Of a stretch of 34,687 nucleotides of DNA, positions 19,025 through 28,317 are shown piece after piece; the first letter of the stretch is position 1, and each line of letters opens with the position of its first letter. The stretch spans positions 1 to 34,687 of the forward strand of contig VFJK01000188.1 in assembly GCA_009886125.1 (NCBI GenBank). Direction: 5' to 3'. Source of the DNA: Geobacter sp. (lineage in GTDB: Bacteria; Desulfobacterota; Desulfuromonadia; Geobacterales; DSM-12255). A program made the translations under genes and the position numbers. The notes beneath the pieces were generated by a model, which ran no database searches, had not been told where the DNA came from, and saw nothing but the letters and a program-made list of their open reading frames with translations.

Positions 19025-20050
19025 ATGATAAGAATTCTCATTGCTGATGACTCTCTGCTGGTACGAACGATTCTGCGTGACGCCCTGAACTCTTCAGGCG
19101 ATATGCGGGTTATCGGTGAGGCCGGTGATGGAGCAGAAGCTGCACATCTTGTCGAAGTACTGAAGCCGGACATTGTCATCATGGATATCCTCATGCCGGT
19201 CATGGGAGGATTGGAAGCCACGGAGACCATTATGGCGAAGTCTCCCGTCCCGATTCTGATTCTTTCGTCCACACTTGATGACAAGGACGTCAAGCTTGCC
19301 TTTACCGCCATAAAGAAGGGTGCGCTGGATGTCATGGGAAAGCCCTCCCTGAATGGTGCAGCAAGTCAGGAGGAGTTCATCTCCAGGCTTTTTGAAAAGA
19401 TCAGGCTGCTGTCTCGTATCAAGGTGATCCATCATATCCAGAGGAGTAAAGGGCCTGCTGTAACTGTCCCTGTTAAAGGTTCATTCCGCACTATTCTTGC
19501 TATCGGGGCATCAACAGGAGGCCCCAAGGCAGTCATGAGTATCGTGAAGAGTCTGCCGGCAGGATTCAAAGGTGCAGTGTTTATCGTCCAGCATATCTCT
19601 TCCGGTTTTGCAAAAGGCTTTGCACACTGGCTTGATCTGGAAAGCCATATTCCGGTGCGTCTTGCAAGGAGCGGTGATATTCCGCTACCCGGTGAAGTAC
19701 TGGTAGCGCCGACAGATTGCCATATGGTTCTTGAAAACGGAGCAATACGGTTTCTGGATACGCCGCCGGTAAACTGCTGCAGGCCCTCCATCGATGTGTT
19801 TTTCAACTCGATCGCCCCTGGAAAGGCGCGGGATACCGTGGGGGTACTTCTTACGGGTATGGGGAAAGATGGTGCTCAGGGCCTTTCGAAGCTGAGGTCG
19901 AGCGGGGCACTTACCATAGTTCAGGATGAAAAGAGCTGTGCAGTCTTCGGTATGCCTAAAGCAGCAATCGCCCTGGGTGCAGCTGATGAAGTACTTAATA
20001 TTGATGAAATACCTGATGCGGTTTCAAGAAATTTCTGCAATGCAAATTGA
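19025..20050 (+). CDS. cheB: CheB-type protein-glutamate methylesterase
   Basis: The 341-aa protein has an N-terminal receiver (DD at 8-9, phosphoacceptor D54 in IVIMDILMP) and a C-terminal methylesterase. The catalytic triad is visible: Ser in AIGASTGGP, His in IVQHIS, Asp in GMGKDGA. It removes receptor methyl groups in balance with CheR. The ATG at 19025 is chosen over the TTG directly before it. Its stop overlaps the AAGGAGG ribosome binding site of the next gene. Confidence 0.93.
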   Translation: MIRILIADDSLLVRTILRDALNSSGDMRVIGEAGDGAEAAHLVEVLKPDIVIMDILMPVMGGLEATETIMAKSPVPILILSSTLDDKDVKLAFTAIKKGALDVMGKPSLNGAASQEEFISRLFEKIRLLSRIKVIHHIQRSKGPAVTVPVKGSFRTILAIGASTGGPKAVMSIVKSLPAGFKGAVFIVQHISSGFAKGFAHWLDLESHIPVRLARSGDIPLPGEVLVAPTDCHMVLENGAIRFLDTPPVNCCRPSIDVFFNSIAPGKARDTVGVLLTGMGKDGAQGLSKLRSSGALTIVQDEKSCAVFGMPKAAIALGAADEVLNIDEIPDAVSRNFCNAN

Positions 20051-20061
20051 AGGAGGCTTTT

Positions 20062-20436
20062 ATGGCAGGCAAAAAAATCCTGGTGATAGACGATAGCGAA
20101 CTGGTTCTGGCTATGGCAAGTGACGCTCTCAAGGGTGCCGGGTATGAAGTGTTCACTGCAACAAACGGGATCGAAGCAAACAGCTTCATCTTCTCTACGA
20201 CAAGCAGACCCGACCTTATTATTATGGATATAATGATGCCTCTTCTTGACGGGAACAAAAAAGCGAAAATCCTGAAAGAAAAGGATTTCAGTAAAGATAT
20301 TCCGATCATGTTTATCTCTTCCAAGAGTGAAGCCGAGCTTGAAAAACTTGTTGAAGAGTCGGGAGCAGACGGCTATATCACCAAGCCGTTCACCAGCCAG
20401 GGGATTGTAAACTCTGTCCGGACAGTTCTGAAGTAG
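20062..20436 (+). CDS. single-domain response regulator, CheY-like
   Basis: The 124-aa protein is one receiver domain: acidic pair D10/D11, phosphoacceptor D56 (LIIMDIMMP), a Ser at the Thr/Ser position (MFISSKS) and Lys in YITKPF. There is no output domain, so it works through protein contact, as CheY does. A strong AAGGAGG lies five bases before the ATG, and it is the last gene of the operon. Because the flanking gene on the other strand is a diguanylate cyclase, this regulator is a candidate link to c-di-GMP output. That is inference only. Confidence 0.9.
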   Translation: MAGKKILVIDDSELVLAMASDALKGAGYEVFTATNGIEANSFIFSTTSRPDLIIMDIMMPLLDGNKKAKILKEKDFSKDIPIMFISSKSEAELEKLVEESGADGYITKPFTSQGIVNSVRTVLK

Positions 20437-20463
20437 ACGCAGCCGTATATTTAATCCTGAAAA

Positions 20464-20660
20464 CGGCAGTTGGAAGTTGCCGAAATGAGAGCCTCAGGGC
20501 TATTTCGTTGCAATTCTTAGTGAAATTGAGCGTAAACAGCCGATATTGTCTGAACCCGAAGGGTGAGAACATACACAGAACCTTTGGCGGCTGTAGCTCA
20601 ATGAGCTTAGAAGTGCAGAAATAGCACGTCCGCTCGAATGCAGGCAGCTTTCAACTGCCG
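20464..20660. repeat. structured dispersed element, copy A
   Basis: This 197-bp element sits between the convergent response regulator and diguanylate cyclase genes. Terminal arms (CGGCAGTTGGAAGTTGCCG, 20464-20482, against 20642-20660) are complementary at 16 of 19 positions. Internal pairs include GCTATTTC with GAAATAGC, a TGCA-centred stem, CAGCCG with CGGCTG, and a small ACCC-GAA-GGGT hairpin. The blocks GAGAGCCTCAGGGC, GCCGATAT(T)GTCTGA, CGGCTGTAGC and GCTCGAATGCAGGC recur in copy B at 27243-27417 in the opposite orientation. No ORF is present. The remainder of the gap 20437-20682 shows nothing else. Confidence 0.8.
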
Positions 20661-20682
20661 AATCTAGGTTATTTGCCAGGTC

Positions 20683-21915
20683 TCAGCTACAGACCTGATT
20701 CCTCCCCTTGCTTTTCGCACGGTAAAGCGCCTTGTCTGCAGCTTTCATGACTTCTGCCGGCCCCCCCTGCCTTTCGCCCGATTCGGCAACGCCTATGCTG
20801 ATGGTGACAGAGACCTCGGTTAAGCCGCTTTTGCTCCCCCGTTTGCCCTCCCCCTGCTTTGCATCCCTGGGTCTGTCGTCGTTTCTGATAGCAAGACTGT
20901 ACCCTTCGATCGCCCTTCTCAGCTCTTCAAGATGAGGGAGGGCATCTGCGCTCCTCTTCCCCGGAAAAAGCACGGTGAACTCTTCTCCTCCATAGCGGAA
21001 TGCCTTGCCGTTTCCACCTACCGACATCATCTTCTTGGCCACCATCTTGAGGACCTGATCCCCGACATCGTGCCCATAGGTATCGTTGAAACGCTTGAAA
21101 TGATCTACATCCAGCATGGCAACTGCATAGCGTCTCCCCAGACCGTGAAGGTTTTCATTCAGCGCCCTCCTCGAGGGCATGCCGGTCAGGTCGTCTCTGA
21201 ACGCCATGTTGTAGGAGTCCTGGAGGATGCTTAACGTGATGATCAATCCTGCTGCAAAGCAGAAGAGTGGAGGGATGTCAGGTGAGGTGATTTTTGAGAG
21301 TGTTATGACCACCGCCGTAAGGGCTCCGAGGAGACCGCTTTCTATGGGCAGCTGGCGTTTAACGGTCAGTGATGCGATGAGGAGAATGAAGAGCGATGCG
21401 AGGAGGAGCAGCGGCTGAGGAAGGAGGAGTCTGTCGAGTACTGCAAACGGAAACAGCTTGCGGGTAAGCAGCGGGAGCAGCTCTTCAAAATAGTGCCGGA
21501 ACAGAAGCCACACTGAGGCTGTCTGGATAAGTATAAAGCCGAGGCGGAGTCTTCCTGCAACTGAAAAGACACCTTTTTCCCGCATTGCGGCCAGCAGGGC
21601 AAAGTTGAAGGGAAGCAGCAGTGAAAGGCCGAGATACAGCCCCTGATGGTCAAAGCCGATGATCCCTTCGCTGAGATGTGTCCTGGATAAAAAGTAGAGA
21701 ATGCTGATAAGAAGAAGCGCTGTGAATGGCCGCCCGCGGTGGAAATGAACCGAGAGGAACATCCCGATCATTGCGGAAAGATAGGGGGATATCAGTAACA
21801 GCTCTCTGTGTGCAGGGGTAAGTTCGGCCAGTTTCGGCAGCATGAAAAAAGCAGCAGCCAGTAGTGCCAAAGGTACAGAAAATATAAGAGTCTTTTTTGC
21901 TGTCACTTTAACCAC
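20683..21915 (-). CDS. membrane-bound GGDEF diguanylate cyclase
   Basis: The 410-aa protein has an N-terminal half with about seven hydrophobic segments and no recognised sensor name. Residues about 240-410 are a GGDEF domain with FRDDLTGMPSRRAL, AMLDVDHFKRFNDTYGHDVGD, RYGGEEF (active-site signature) and SIGVAES. The signature is intact, so c-di-GMP synthesis is expected. The RxxD product-inhibition site just before GGEEF is absent. A charged insert of about 20 residues (rich in Lys, Arg, Asp) interrupts the domain after the signature. The start is GTG at 21915. It is convergent with the chemosensory operon, with only copy A of the structured repeat between. Confidence 0.87.
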   Translation of the reverse strand: MVKVTAKKTLIFSVPLALLAAAFFMLPKLAELTPAHRELLLISPYLSAMIGMFLSVHFHRGRPFTALLLISILYFLSRTHLSEGIIGFDHQGLYLGLSLLLPFNFALLAAMREKGVFSVAGRLRLGFILIQTASVWLLFRHYFEELLPLLTRKLFPFAVLDRLLLPQPLLLLASLFILLIASLTVKRQLPIESGLLGALTAVVITLSKITSPDIPPLFCFAAGLIITLSILQDSYNMAFRDDLTGMPSRRALNENLHGLGRRYAVAMLDVDHFKRFNDTYGHDVGDQVLKMVAKKMMSVGGNGKAFRYGGEEFTVLFPGKRSADALPHLEELRRAIEGYSLAIRNDDRPRDAKQGEGKRGSKSGLTEVSVTISIGVAESGERQGGPAEVMKAADKALYRAKSKGRNQVCS

Positions 21916-25522: not shown

Positions 25523-25555
25523 CCGGAAGAACCCCTTGGTAATAAACTTTGAACC

Positions 25556-25716
25556 TACGTAACCGTCGGGAGCCGTCTCTCACTACAACGCCTCTGCTTC
25601 TGCACCAACAGTGGTTTGCTCCGCAGCGAAGAAGATCAGCGGCAGTGTCGATTTTGGCGACATCTGGCCATGTGCCCCGGCCATTTCCGTTCGAACCGGC
25701 TCCCGACGGTTACGTA
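25556..25716. repeat. hairpin-bounded 161-bp element before mqnL
   Basis: Perfect 20-bp inverted arms (TACGTAACCGTCGGGAGCCG at 25556-25575 and its complement at 25697-25716) enclose 121 bp without a recognisable gene. It lies in the 311-base divergent gap between mrcA and mqnL, where both promoters must be. I could not align the inside with copies A or B of the other element beyond short words such as GGCCATTTC. Confidence 0.85.
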
Positions 25717-25781
25717 TTCAGACATAAATTCTATGCATTATCGCAGATTGAGTTACGAATACAAGCAGAAACAGGCAGGCG

Positions 25782-25817
25782 ATGGACCTTAAAAACCTTG
25801 TCTGGGAGGCGCTGTAG
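25782..25817 (+). other. 11-codon mini-ORF upstream of mqnL
   Basis: ATG at 25782 reads MDLKNLVWEAL then TAG, 16 bases before the mqnL ATG; AGGCAGG lies before it. The peptide resembles the start of MqnE/MqnC-type radical SAM proteins, so it may be the stub of a lost gene. It could also be a leader peptide or chance. Confidence 0.25.
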
Positions 25818-25833
25818 TGGTAGAAACGTGCAT

Positions 25834-27231
25834 ATGATCTGCCTTGACCTGAGAGCCCTGTTTCACATCCTTGAAATCGCAGGTGAGCTGCACTCTGTCA
25901 AGGTAACGGTCGATCCGCAGCTGGAGATTGCAGCGCTTACAAACAGGGTCTGCAAGAGCGAGAACAATAATAAAGCACTCCTGTTCGAAGATGTCCGCGG
26001 GAGCAGCTTCAGGGTGGCAACAAACCTTTTCGGGTCAGCCCGGCGGATGGCGCTGGCGCTCGGGATCGATGACCTATCCGACCTGACCTGTCGGTTTGAT
26101 GAACTCCTTAATGGCCTTCCCGGAAAGGATGCCAGTGAGAAGATCTCTTCTTTGGCTGCTTCAGCTGCCTGGAGGGATACCACGGCAGAGCTGTGCGAGG
26201 ATGGCCCGCCGGACGACCTGATCGCTGCAACTCTTGACCTTCGATCATTACCTCTCATCAAGGGTAGCCCGCTGGATGGTCAACCTGACCATGACGGGAG
26301 ATTTTTTACCCTGCCGCTGGTCGTAACTGCTGATCCGGACTTTTCAGAATGCAACTGCGGGATGTACCGCGTCGCTCAGACAGGCTCGGACAGCGTTGCA
26401 CTCTGCTGGTCGAGTAGTAGCGGAGCTGCGGAGCATGCTGCGAAATGGGCAACAGCAGGAAAGCCCATGCCGGTCGTTATCGCTCTGGGCGGTCCGCCTG
26501 CCCTGACCTTTGCCGCTTCCCTGCCGCTGCCTGTTCAGATCGATGAATTCAGTTTTGCCGGCCTGCTGCAGCGGGAGCCGATCAAGCTCTATCGTTGCGC
26601 GAACGGCCTGCCGGCTCCTGCCGGAGCCGAGCTCGTCATCGAAGGGTATCTTGAAACAGGAGAGAGCGGGCTCTCAGGGGCTTTCGGCAATCATACCGGT
26701 TTCTATACCCCATCCGGACCTGTTCCGGCGATGAAGGTGACATCGATTCGGCACCGCCCGGACATGATCCTCCCGGCAACTGTCGTCGGCAGACCTCCCA
26801 TGGAAGACTGCTGGCTTGCCCGGGCAGGCGGCTGCCTGCTGCTCTCTCTGCTCAAGATCGACGTGCCTGAAGTGACCGGACTCCACTACCCGTTTGCCGG
26901 TATTTTCCATGGCGGGGTCATCATCCCGGTCCGGAACGCTGCGGGAAGAGGCGCTGAACTGATCTCGTCAATACGGAATAATCGCTGGTTCAGCGGATCG
27001 AAGCTGCTCGTGCTCGTCGATGACGGGGAGGATCCTTCGGATGAGGCCGGGATCTGCTGGCGGGTCATGAATCTGGTCGACTGGGAGCGCGATCTGATCG
27101 TCTCGGAGGGAAGGCTTTCCGTGGATGCGACTTTGAAGCCCGATATGAAAAAAGTTCTGGCAACAGCAGATGCAGATACGCTTGCTTTGGTCGGGCGTCG
27201 CTGGAAAGAGTACGGTTTTGCGGACGATTAA
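25834..27231 (+). CDS. mqnL: UbiD-like decarboxylase of the futalosine menaquinone pathway, with altered active site
   Basis: The 465-aa protein is of the UbiD family, and its neighbours mqnP and mqnM mark it as the menaquinone version. The N-terminus MICLDLRALFHILE and CGMYR (N174, R179) are as expected. However, where canonical UbiD enzymes have EGPFG(E/D), with both acids catalytic, this protein has S281-G-A-F-G-N286. The usual His near CWSSSSG is also missing. It may be inactive, act on another substrate, or be a lineage variant. The ATG at 25834 lacks a strong ribosome binding site. The open frame upstream runs through the hairpin element and is not credible coding. Confidence 0.75.
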   Translation: MICLDLRALFHILEIAGELHSVKVTVDPQLEIAALTNRVCKSENNNKALLFEDVRGSSFRVATNLFGSARRMALALGIDDLSDLTCRFDELLNGLPGKDASEKISSLAASAAWRDTTAELCEDGPPDDLIAATLDLRSLPLIKGSPLDGQPDHDGRFFTLPLVVTADPDFSECNCGMYRVAQTGSDSVALCWSSSSGAAEHAAKWATAGKPMPVVIALGGPPALTFAASLPLPVQIDEFSFAGLLQREPIKLYRCANGLPAPAGAELVIEGYLETGESGLSGAFGNHTGFYTPSGPVPAMKVTSIRHRPDMILPATVVGRPPMEDCWLARAGGCLLLSLLKIDVPEVTGLHYPFAGIFHGGVIIPVRNAAGRGAELISSIRNNRWFSGSKLLVLVDDGEDPSDEAGICWRVMNLVDWERDLIVSEGRLSVDATLKPDMKKVLATADADTLALVGRRWKEYGFADD

Positions 27232-27242
27232 TGCTACGAGCA

Positions 27243-27417
27243 GGTCGGCACCAAGCGCCTGCATTCGAGCTGACGGGCCATTTCTGCAGTTCCGCGGCTC
27301 ATTACGCTACAGCCGATAAACTCGCTACGCTCAGACATATCGGCTTTTTTGCTCCATGTCGCCGGGAACTGCAACGAAACGGCCCTGAGGCTCTCTTTAC
27401 GGCACTTGATGCCGACC
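27243..27417. repeat. structured dispersed element, copy B (inverted relative to copy A)
   Basis: This 175-bp element fills the mqnL-mqnP gap. Terminal arms GGTCGGCACCAAGCGCC (27243-27259) and GGCACTTGATGCCGACC (27401-27417) are complementary at 15 of 17 positions, though their sequence differs from the arms of copy A. Internal stems are also kept: GGCCATTTC with GAAACGGCC, GCAGTTCC with GGAACTGC, AGCCGAT with ATCGGCT. Read on the minus strand it matches copy A block by block. It is transcribed with the operon as antisense to copy A orientation. Confidence 0.8.
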
Positions 27418-27444
27418 CGGGTATTGATAAAAGGATTACAATTC

Positions 27445-28317
27445 ATGACGCTGTTTGGCCGCATATCCGTTTTTCTGGAGATGATCAAGTTTTCCCACAC
27501 GCTTTTTGCGCTGCCGTTCGCCTTTACCGGAGCTCTTCTAGCCGCCCGCGGACTCCCTTCAGCTGCTCAGTCGCTCTGGATCCTTCTGGCAATGGTCGGG
27601 GCGCGGAGTGCGGCAATGGGGCTGAACAGGCTCGTCGATGCGGATATCGACGCACAGAATCCGCGCACCGTCTCAAGGGCTATTCCGGCCGGCCTGATCA
27701 GCAAGGGGAACGTCGGCGTTTTCATAACGCTTTCGATCCTGCTGCTGCTCTATGCAGCATACAGGCTTAATCCGCTCTGCCTCAAGCTTTCACCGGTCGC
27801 GCTCTTCTTTCTCGCGCTCTACTCCTACTGCAAACGCTTCACTGCCTTTGCGCACATCGTGCTCGGCATCTGTCTCTCCGCTGCACCGGTCGGTGCATGG
27901 ATAGCGATCCGCGGCGAAGTCTCCCTGCCGCCGATCATCCTTGGTGCCGCGGTCCTCTTCTGGGTCGCCGGATTCGATATCCTCTATGCTCTTCAGGACC
28001 TGGAGTTCGACCGTCAGGCAGGTCTGCACTCCATTCCGGTAACTCTCGGGGTAAAGGGGTCACTCTGGCTGTCCCGGAGCTTTTCGGCGGTGATGATCCT
28101 GCTCCTTCTCTGGCTCTACGTCACCCTCGGATTGGGAGTACCGTTCCTCTGCGGCATCGGGGCTGCTGCGCTGCTCCTTTTATACGAGCACCTGCTCCTG
28201 AAAGACGGTGACCTGGCAAAACTCGATCTCGCTTTCTTTACCATGAACGGCTATGTCAGCATCATCATCCTGATCGCTACCTGTGCCGAAATTTTCGTAT
28301 CCGGAGGTGGGAGATGA
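27445..28317 (+). CDS. mqnP: UbiA-type prenyltransferase of menaquinone synthesis
   Basis: The 290-aa polytopic membrane protein has both Asp-rich motifs of the UbiA family: NRLVDADIDAQNPRT (Mg-prenyl diphosphate binding) and DLEFDRQAGLHSIP. It would attach the polyprenyl chain in the futalosine pathway. The ATG at 27445 has AAAAGGA nine bases upstream. A longer in-frame reading from 27349 would translate repeat copy B and is rejected. The stop overlaps the start of mqnM (ATGA). Confidence 0.85.
   Translation: MTLFGRISVFLEMIKFSHTLFALPFAFTGALLAARGLPSAAQSLWILLAMVGARSAAMGLNRLVDADIDAQNPRTVSRAIPAGLISKGNVGVFITLSILLLLYAAYRLNPLCLKLSPVALFFLALYSYCKRFTAFAHIVLGICLSAAPVGAWIAIRGEVSLPPIILGAAVLFWVAGFDILYALQDLEFDRQAGLHSIPVTLGVKGSLWLSRSFSAVMILLLLWLYVTLGLGVPFLCGIGAAALLLLYEHLLLKDGDLAKLDLAFFTMNGYVSIIILIATCAEIFVSGGGR

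Follow-up and report, generated by a model that had tools for sequence, protein, structure and literature searches.

A covarying hairpin rod, often with transposon-like ends in Geobacter, recurs on contigs of other phyla

The Geobacter sp. contig VFJK01000188.1, whose 34,687 nucleotides we analysed as one stretch (the window), carries two short elements, copy A and copy B, that lie between genes in opposite orientation and each fold as a single long rod. We found that the stems of such rods covary across 70 copies, that one particular strand folds, and that the rod is also present in further families of the phylum and on contigs labelled as other phyla. Many young copies in Geobacterales, copy A included, bear terminal inverted repeats and 5-bp duplications as miniature inverted-repeat transposable elements (MITEs) have. 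Our favoured reading, to which we give a probability of roughly 0.45, is a MITE-like element kept for a single-strand fold, probably one of single-stranded DNA (ssDNA), and we prefer this to a structured RNA. The family would comprise dispersed elements, short and non-coding, that have the rod as their conserved part: one strand would form a long hairpin, imperfect in its pairing, with recurrent internal loops and a near-fixed tip, and the stem sequence would be free to change as long as it pairs.

None of 200 dinucleotide shuffles was as stable as copy A (-91.2 kcal/mol, z -8.98), and the same held for copy B (-105.3 kcal/mol, z -10.43; 0 of 200). The conserved blocks, self-complementary arms and oppositely oriented second copy that the initial annotation had described are present in the sequence, and GAGAGCCTCAGGGC occurs in the window at two exact places, one per copy, and at a third with 2 mismatches. 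A BLAST search of the own genome with copy A returned 34 matches, 21 of them nearly full-length, with copies spread over many contigs; five copies (L023-L027) retained part of the core only and differed in their outer parts, and L019, L028 and L029 matched at the right end only. Elements measure ~180-210 nt, the rod about 180-200 nt. In 58 relatives, own genome included, single-copy BLAST detected the element in 12, and a relaxed form of the tip motif, TGTCTGA-[stem-loop]-GAGTTT, matched 22 places in the own genome. Cut-down relatives also occur there (L019, L029 and L194), which keep both ends or the right end and have lost the middle; L019 is 77 bp long with the same 5-mer on either side.

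Folding the 21 nearly full-length copies together (alignment A1) with RNAalifold gave 50 pairs, 27 of them with two-sided changes. A covariance model built from A1 (R1) produced 134 matches in 84 loci, many of them a weaker antisense reading of the same place. After antisense, short, tip-less, duplicate and >95% alike matches were dropped, 70 copies remained, which we realigned with MAFFT without using the model (alignment A4). Here 95.4% of 3890 cells were paired and 49 of 56 pairs showed two-sided change. The covariation score was 0.475, against a mean of 0.167 in 500 shuffles and 0.050-0.086 with partners slid by 1-3 columns; no shuffle reached A4 on any of five measures, in a comparison that favours the fold, most of all in cells paired, since the fold was derived from the same 70 copies. 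Covariation first read from two copies thus holds on 70, and selection on folding, whether of an RNA or of an ssDNA hairpin, gains support: many further copies exist, their stems covary, and they sit between genes rather than being remnants of one coding gene.

The strand that folds is the one bearing TGTCTGA..GAG, whatever the direction of neighbouring genes. A model-fitted alignment of the 70 copies held 3554 Watson-Crick, 195 G.U, 21 A.C and 128 other cells, and one pair was U.G in 26 of the 70. Equal weight on both strands, or none, would predict G.U about equal to A.C; the excess of G.U therefore indicates that one strand folds. The G.U:A.C counts were 47:3 where the motif strand is antisense to its neighbours, 41:5 where it is sense, 35:3 between convergent and 13:2 between divergent genes, and folding of the same strand in every orientation argues against a function within the mRNA of the neighbours. 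Nor did the element keep a fixed relation to gene direction (27 antisense, 14 sense, 17 convergent and 10 divergent among 68 sites placed; 5 more lay inside an open reading frame (ORF), 2 far from genes, and the rest were one-sided or repeats). All 21 A.C cells belonged to pair types held by ≤3 of 70 copies and 145 of the 195 G.U cells to types held by more, in counts that include inherited states many times over. One-step changes private to one copy had no fold preference (13 A.C, 11 G.U and 36 other mismatches). That shared changes favour G.U and private ones do not suggests that the spreading lineage may be what selection acts on, and that copies decay once landed. The variation between arms, read in the initial annotation as compensating change, does keep the fold across copies; in part, however, it marks subfamilies, and single-copy one-step changes ignore the fold.

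Matching mobile-element ends had been named as what would favour a MITE. Many copies, copy A among them, have such ends with 5-bp duplications; copy B does not. Young copies reach out to CCTGAAAAC..GAATCTAGG, and 20 core-bearing copies, 10 of them in the host, have both CCT..AGG ends. Their flanking 5-mers agree at 5/5 positions in 11 copies, at 4/5 in 6, at 3/5 in 1 and at 1/5 in 2; with right 5-mers shuffled (20,000 trials), a mean of 0.99 were identical (maximum 6) and 4.56 agreed at 4/5 or better (maximum 11). Allowing ≤2 mismatches, the end pattern matched the own genome 39 times, 12 of them exactly, versus 8 for a control pattern. The terminal repeats of copy A match the ends of locus L237 (G130), which lie at 3 and 1616 at the start of a 17,499-base contig and enclose a 502-aa ORF; L239 (G131) is organised in the same way. 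The L237 protein matched Pfam DDE_Tnp_1_4 (PF13701) at 81.9 bits, above the cut-off, and NCBIfam IS1380 (NF033539) at 4e-45 and 154.2 bits, below the cut-off of 180. Among 24 genomes an L237-type protein was found only in G130, plus a short piece, a relic, in G005; PF13701 across 12 carriers likewise gave a single sub-cut-off piece, in G005.

Copy A itself contains no transposase, as no ORF of at least 100 aa overlaps the element, and an all-versus-all comparison of ORFs around 145 loci, with clusters judged by eye, revealed no recurring transposase-like companion: the recurring clusters were syntenic genes or large generic or antisense clusters. Neighbours at 13 other-phylum loci were ordinary-looking by eye. 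Plasmids and phages gave no BLAST match with a window copy or with a Clostridium copy, and none of 12 genomes of the family offered an empty site for copy A, whose flanks lay apart in all 7 loci compared. Several rod-less short Geobacterales elements also have CCT..CGGCAGTT ends, among them L232 and L265, which show identical 5-mers; given these common ends, several MITE families may depend on one type of transposase.

Of 64 stretches that the tip pattern marked in a species-genome collection, 39 came under the labels Geobacter or Geobacteraceae, and the other 25 under Thermotoga, Bacillota, Eubacterium, Nitrospirae, Campylobacterota, Flavobacterium agri, Clostridium sp. OS1-26 or uncultured bacterium. 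In the contexts that were folded, the tip capped a long hairpin with arms that varied widely between sources, L052 being clipped by a contig end. The relaxed pattern matched 1-17 times per genome in ten other-label genomes, picked for having the tip, with 0 control matches. At E up to 1, R1 matched 23 of 28 other-label loci, all but L052, L061, L079, L129 and L143; E-values were 2e-11 and 8e-9 in two Nitrospirae metagenome-assembled genomes (MAGs), 2e-8 at best in a Thermotoga MAG, 6e-8 and 5e-6 in Campylobacterota, 8e-6 to 2e-3 in Clostridium and 5e-4 to 5e-3 in Flavobacterium, scores that owe part to the tip itself. Used without the tip pattern, R1 located the rod in 16 of 297 sampled genomes of the phylum (own counted), representing 10 of 199 genera and 10 families, and all 16 loci matched again on re-scoring. 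The Thermotoga-MAG copies closely resemble the Campylobacterota copies, so the Thermotoga label may be wrong through binning. In viral contigs the strict tip pattern had 0 matches and the relaxed one 18, of which, by eye, only L300 stands on a rod-like hairpin. One viral contig (L306, about 2122-2200) carries tandem tip-like motifs, GTCTGAACGGAGTGAGTTT, GTCTGAGCGTAGTGAGTT and GTTTGAATGTAGTGAGTT, with no rod stems.

Of 88 elements, 75 have a GNA tip loop and 6 a GNNA loop (81 of 88 fitting), closed by stems that are 2-5 pairs long. Loops of these two types, when closed by at least 2 G-C pairs, are the recipe for extraordinarily stable DNA mini-hairpins according to PMC4686876. Only the motif strand carries this mini-hairpin; the complementary strand would read GCTNCGC. 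The 88 loops included 2 GCAA, 1 GAGA, 1 GTAA and 1 GAAA of GNRA type, the tetraloops that RNA prefers.

From these observations we propose how the element may travel. A transposase, probably of IS1380 type and since lost from the host or absent from its assembly, would have moved copy A in trans, a step that we infer because the transposase occurs in relatives and not in the host assembly. Less surely, the rod would be retained because the element goes through an ssDNA stage, in which the GNA or GNNA tip on at least 2 G-C pairs might start folding and be bound or protected; landed copies would then decay. A broader version, which we hold more tentatively, is a cross-phylum class of elements whose core is an ssDNA rod with an ultra-stable mini-hairpin tip, recognised by a proposed factor and riding on varied mobile vehicles. 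These would be IS1380-type ends in Geobacterales and other flanks elsewhere, and with different vehicles in different lineages the fold, not the arm sequence, would be what spreads.

Several results weigh against the ssDNA proposal. The loop rule is obeyed in only 7 of 17 elements found by R1 alone (9 with a G.T pair allowed), and in one genus among these R1-only elements the loops are larger, for instance GAGGTA. Two nearest-neighbour models predict poor folding of isolated 28-nt tips, the DNA model giving no stability. The motif strand lies on the negative GC-skew side in 56 of 87 loci, opposite to a lagging-strand template, and so it does in 6 of 9 G048 copies (some placements incomplete) and in 6 of 6 in Clostridium (a set that includes 2 TGTTTGAGC variants in L290); this bias is not separable from gene direction and does not discriminate between RNA and DNA. 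For the skew analysis, a crude stem check kept 88 of 100 tip sites and lost 12 real-looking copies, for example L004. Tolerance of G.U pairs is equally expected of RNA. On the mobility side, copy B and many older copies lack ends, the draft host assembly contains no transposase with the ends in question, and IS1380-type transposition presumably works on double-stranded ends, so the MITE step alone does not need a fold. Finally, 52 private pairs had changed on both sides (24 Watson-Crick, 7 G.U and 21 unpaired), and at orthologous junctions still-paired double changes outnumbered the double changes of any kind expected by chance in 8 of 9 comparisons, which have copies in common (7/2.2, 12/5.0, 14/6.3, 3/1.0, 15/6.8, 5/0.9, 10/3.5 and 8/3.1; the ninth 0/0.3). 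Taken together, the private and orthologous changes mean that selection in place, or replacement by a block or another subfamily at the same site, could be the source of compensation.

Among the rivals, the most credible, although in our judgement unlikely, is a structured non-coding RNA, transcribed from a promoter of its own and carried around by a mobile element, with a conserved protein binding to its tip and internal loops. It would account for strand-specific covariation with many G.U pairs, including the U.G pair shared by 26 of 70 copies, and for conserved internal loops, several with GA beside GC; a pseudoknot-like downstream module, seen by eye in Thermotoga-MAG and Campylobacterota copies, and the few GNRA-type loops (5 of 88) also fit. 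Yet the tip loops are mostly GNA triloops and no Rfam family matched. Many copies, moreover, lie 20-50 nt from both neighbours in every orientation, a spacing that would seem to leave little room for promoters of their own. We see a clearly smaller chance for an ordinary palindromic MITE in which the fold is a by-product and the arms are kept complementary by template switching (quasipalindrome correction). Ends and duplications would follow naturally, as would private one-step changes that disregard the fold, and the number of private two-sided changes suggests block events. Such correction would, however, treat G.U like A.C, whereas shared changes are strongly G.U, a strand asymmetry that disfavours it, and it would erase internal loops that in fact persist, with the tip, across families and phyla.

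Explanations that tie the element to neighbouring genes or to other recombinases fare worse. A cis-acting part of a neighbouring mRNA, for instance an RNase III site or operon insulator, is very improbable: copies do sit between operon genes, and the same junctions are occupied in several genomes (argF and argG; hemC and cobA-hemD; a glcD-like and glcF-like pair), but the motif strand folds even when antisense to both neighbours (47 G.U, 3 A.C), and antisense copies (27) are not rarer than sense ones (14). Movement by a REP-associated tyrosine transposase (RAYT; Y1, HUH), as for repetitive extragenic palindromes (REPs), short palindromes with a GTAG or CGTC tag, and for REP doublets forming hairpins (REPINs), we find hardly credible; intergenic, strand-specific hairpins would suit it, and Y1 genes occur in the host and in 11 of 16 carriers searched, but 5 of the 16 had no Y1 match, and the tip, with ≤5 substitutions allowed, was absent from all 24 Y1 loci, a number that counts some pieces of one gene separately. 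Least credible of all is an integron attC-like site for a tyrosine recombinase. Sites of the attC type act as a single folded DNA strand, and what the rod shares with them is a long, imperfect, one-stranded hairpin that has variable stems and conserved unpaired bases. The attC core is RYYYAAC..GTTRRRY; the A1 arms CGGCAGTTG..CAACTGCCG, inspected by eye, show neither RYYYAAC on the left nor GTTRRRY on the right, and in young copies the outer stem begins with GTT in its left arm where its right arm has AAC, so that the polarity is reversed. Rod copies are also dispersed rather than set in cassette arrays, and differ from attC in their conserved tip.

As a MITE, copy A is a variant on a known kind of element, and the rod itself is unlisted in Rfam. 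IS1380-family MITEs have ISEcp1-type ends and 5-bp duplications. The element resembles them in being short and non-coding with CCTAGATTC-type ends and 5-bp AT-rich duplications, and full transposons with such ends exist in relatives; it differs in that the rod covaries on one strand, has a near-invariant tip and also occurs without these ends in other families and phyla. The initial annotation had recognised no named RNA family, and Rfam agreed, with 0 matches at the gathering score both in the window and across 16 loci from other phyla; near copy A, a single weak match fell far under that family's threshold. REP/REPIN elements with RAYT (PMC3733652, PMC6006769, PMC3116915), as the accessible parts of these papers describe them, are likewise intergenic, dispersed and palindromic with no gene of their own, but REPs span 20-40 bp (PMC3733652) against ~180-210 nt here, and no Y1 gene adjoins the rod element. 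The host's single Y1 (RAYT-like) gene (L115, G000:C154) is flanked by repeats of another kind, GGACATTAG.. and GGGGGACGTTGC...

Comparable published sequences are the multicopy, partly palindromic, intergenic ones in Geobacter and Pelobacter genomes (PMC2700814, PMC2996986, PMC3543383), which belong to the same bacterial order. As far as accessible, the main text of these reports mentions neither a rod shared across phyla nor a tip motif nor transposon ends; their supplementary alignments may include the rod family. Our literature search on the tip strings and the rod family found no description, with the supplementary Geobacter and Pelobacter alignments outside the comparison. Palindromic MITEs as such are common. 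Stems covarying on one strand, a near-invariant tip and recurrence in unrelated bacteria form a combination that one associates with structured RNAs, and to some extent with attC sites, but not with MITEs of DDE transposases. A true ssDNA fold would amount to a new structure-borne mobility signal with a compact motif, and a true RNA to a widespread family absent from Rfam; in both cases the tip motif offers an easy means of searching for the element.

Both window copies are intergenic, and their parts and adjoining genes are collected in Table 1. The window contains no tRNA.

Table 1 Parts of copies A and B and the genes that adjoin them (window positions)
Feature	Position	Strand	Remarks
Copy A, entire MITE-like element, CCT to AGG	20456..20668	+	terminal repeats CCTGAAAACGGCAGTTG / CAACTGCCGAATCTAGG; end pattern matched exactly
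Copy A, rod proper	20464..20660	+	shared blocks and self-complementary arms present
Candidate target-site duplication of copy A, left 5-mer TTAAT	20451..20455	.	equals right 5-mer at 4/5
Candidate target-site duplication of copy A, right 5-mer TTATT	20669..20673	.	equals left 5-mer at 4/5
Copy A, outer stem, left arm, 18 nt	20464..20481	+	helix 1; two-sided changes at 18/18 pairs (70 copies)
Copy A, outer stem, right arm, 18 nt	20643..20660	+	partner of left arm, helix 1
Copy A, rod tip TGTCTGA - ACCC GAA GGGT - GAG	20547..20567	+	near-invariant columns in alignments A1 and A4; also in other phyla
Copy A, 15-nt insertion 3' of tip	20568..20582	+	within A1 only in L001, L002 and L004
Copy B, rod	27240..27418 (about)	-	without recognisable CCT..AGG ends; outer arms differ in sequence, still pair
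Copy B, tip TGTCTGAGCGTAGCGAGTTTA	27317..27337	-	
Response regulator receiver domain, adjoins copy A	20047..20436	+	Pfam PF00072
GGDEF (diguanylate cyclase) domain, adjoins copy A	20683..21915	-	Pfam PF00990
UbiD family, adjoins copy B	25549..27231	+	Pfam PF01977
UbiA prenyltransferase family, adjoins copy B	27445..28317	+	Pfam PF01040

Individual copies elsewhere showed further features. In rumen Bacillota (L061, L079, L083 and L129) the inner rods are nearly identical between copies and the outer arms, ~40-70 nt long, differ per copy and are still self-complementary, as if each copy had landed in, or made, its own inverted repeat. A second module that may form a pseudoknot stands 3' of the rod in L054, L087, L095, L100, L101 and L109, and also in L060, L130 and L136 (by eye): a TTTGGTTCTTTT..AAAAGAAC-type stem whose loop (for example ATCAAGG) could pair with upstream bases (CCTTGAT). 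In the Flavobacterium version of this module the would-be pairs vary by copy and still fit (CGCA/TGCG, CGCC/GGCG). At L013 the right arm, GAATGCCGGCGGTTTTCAACTGCCGGATCCA, recurs in tandem 3' of the element.
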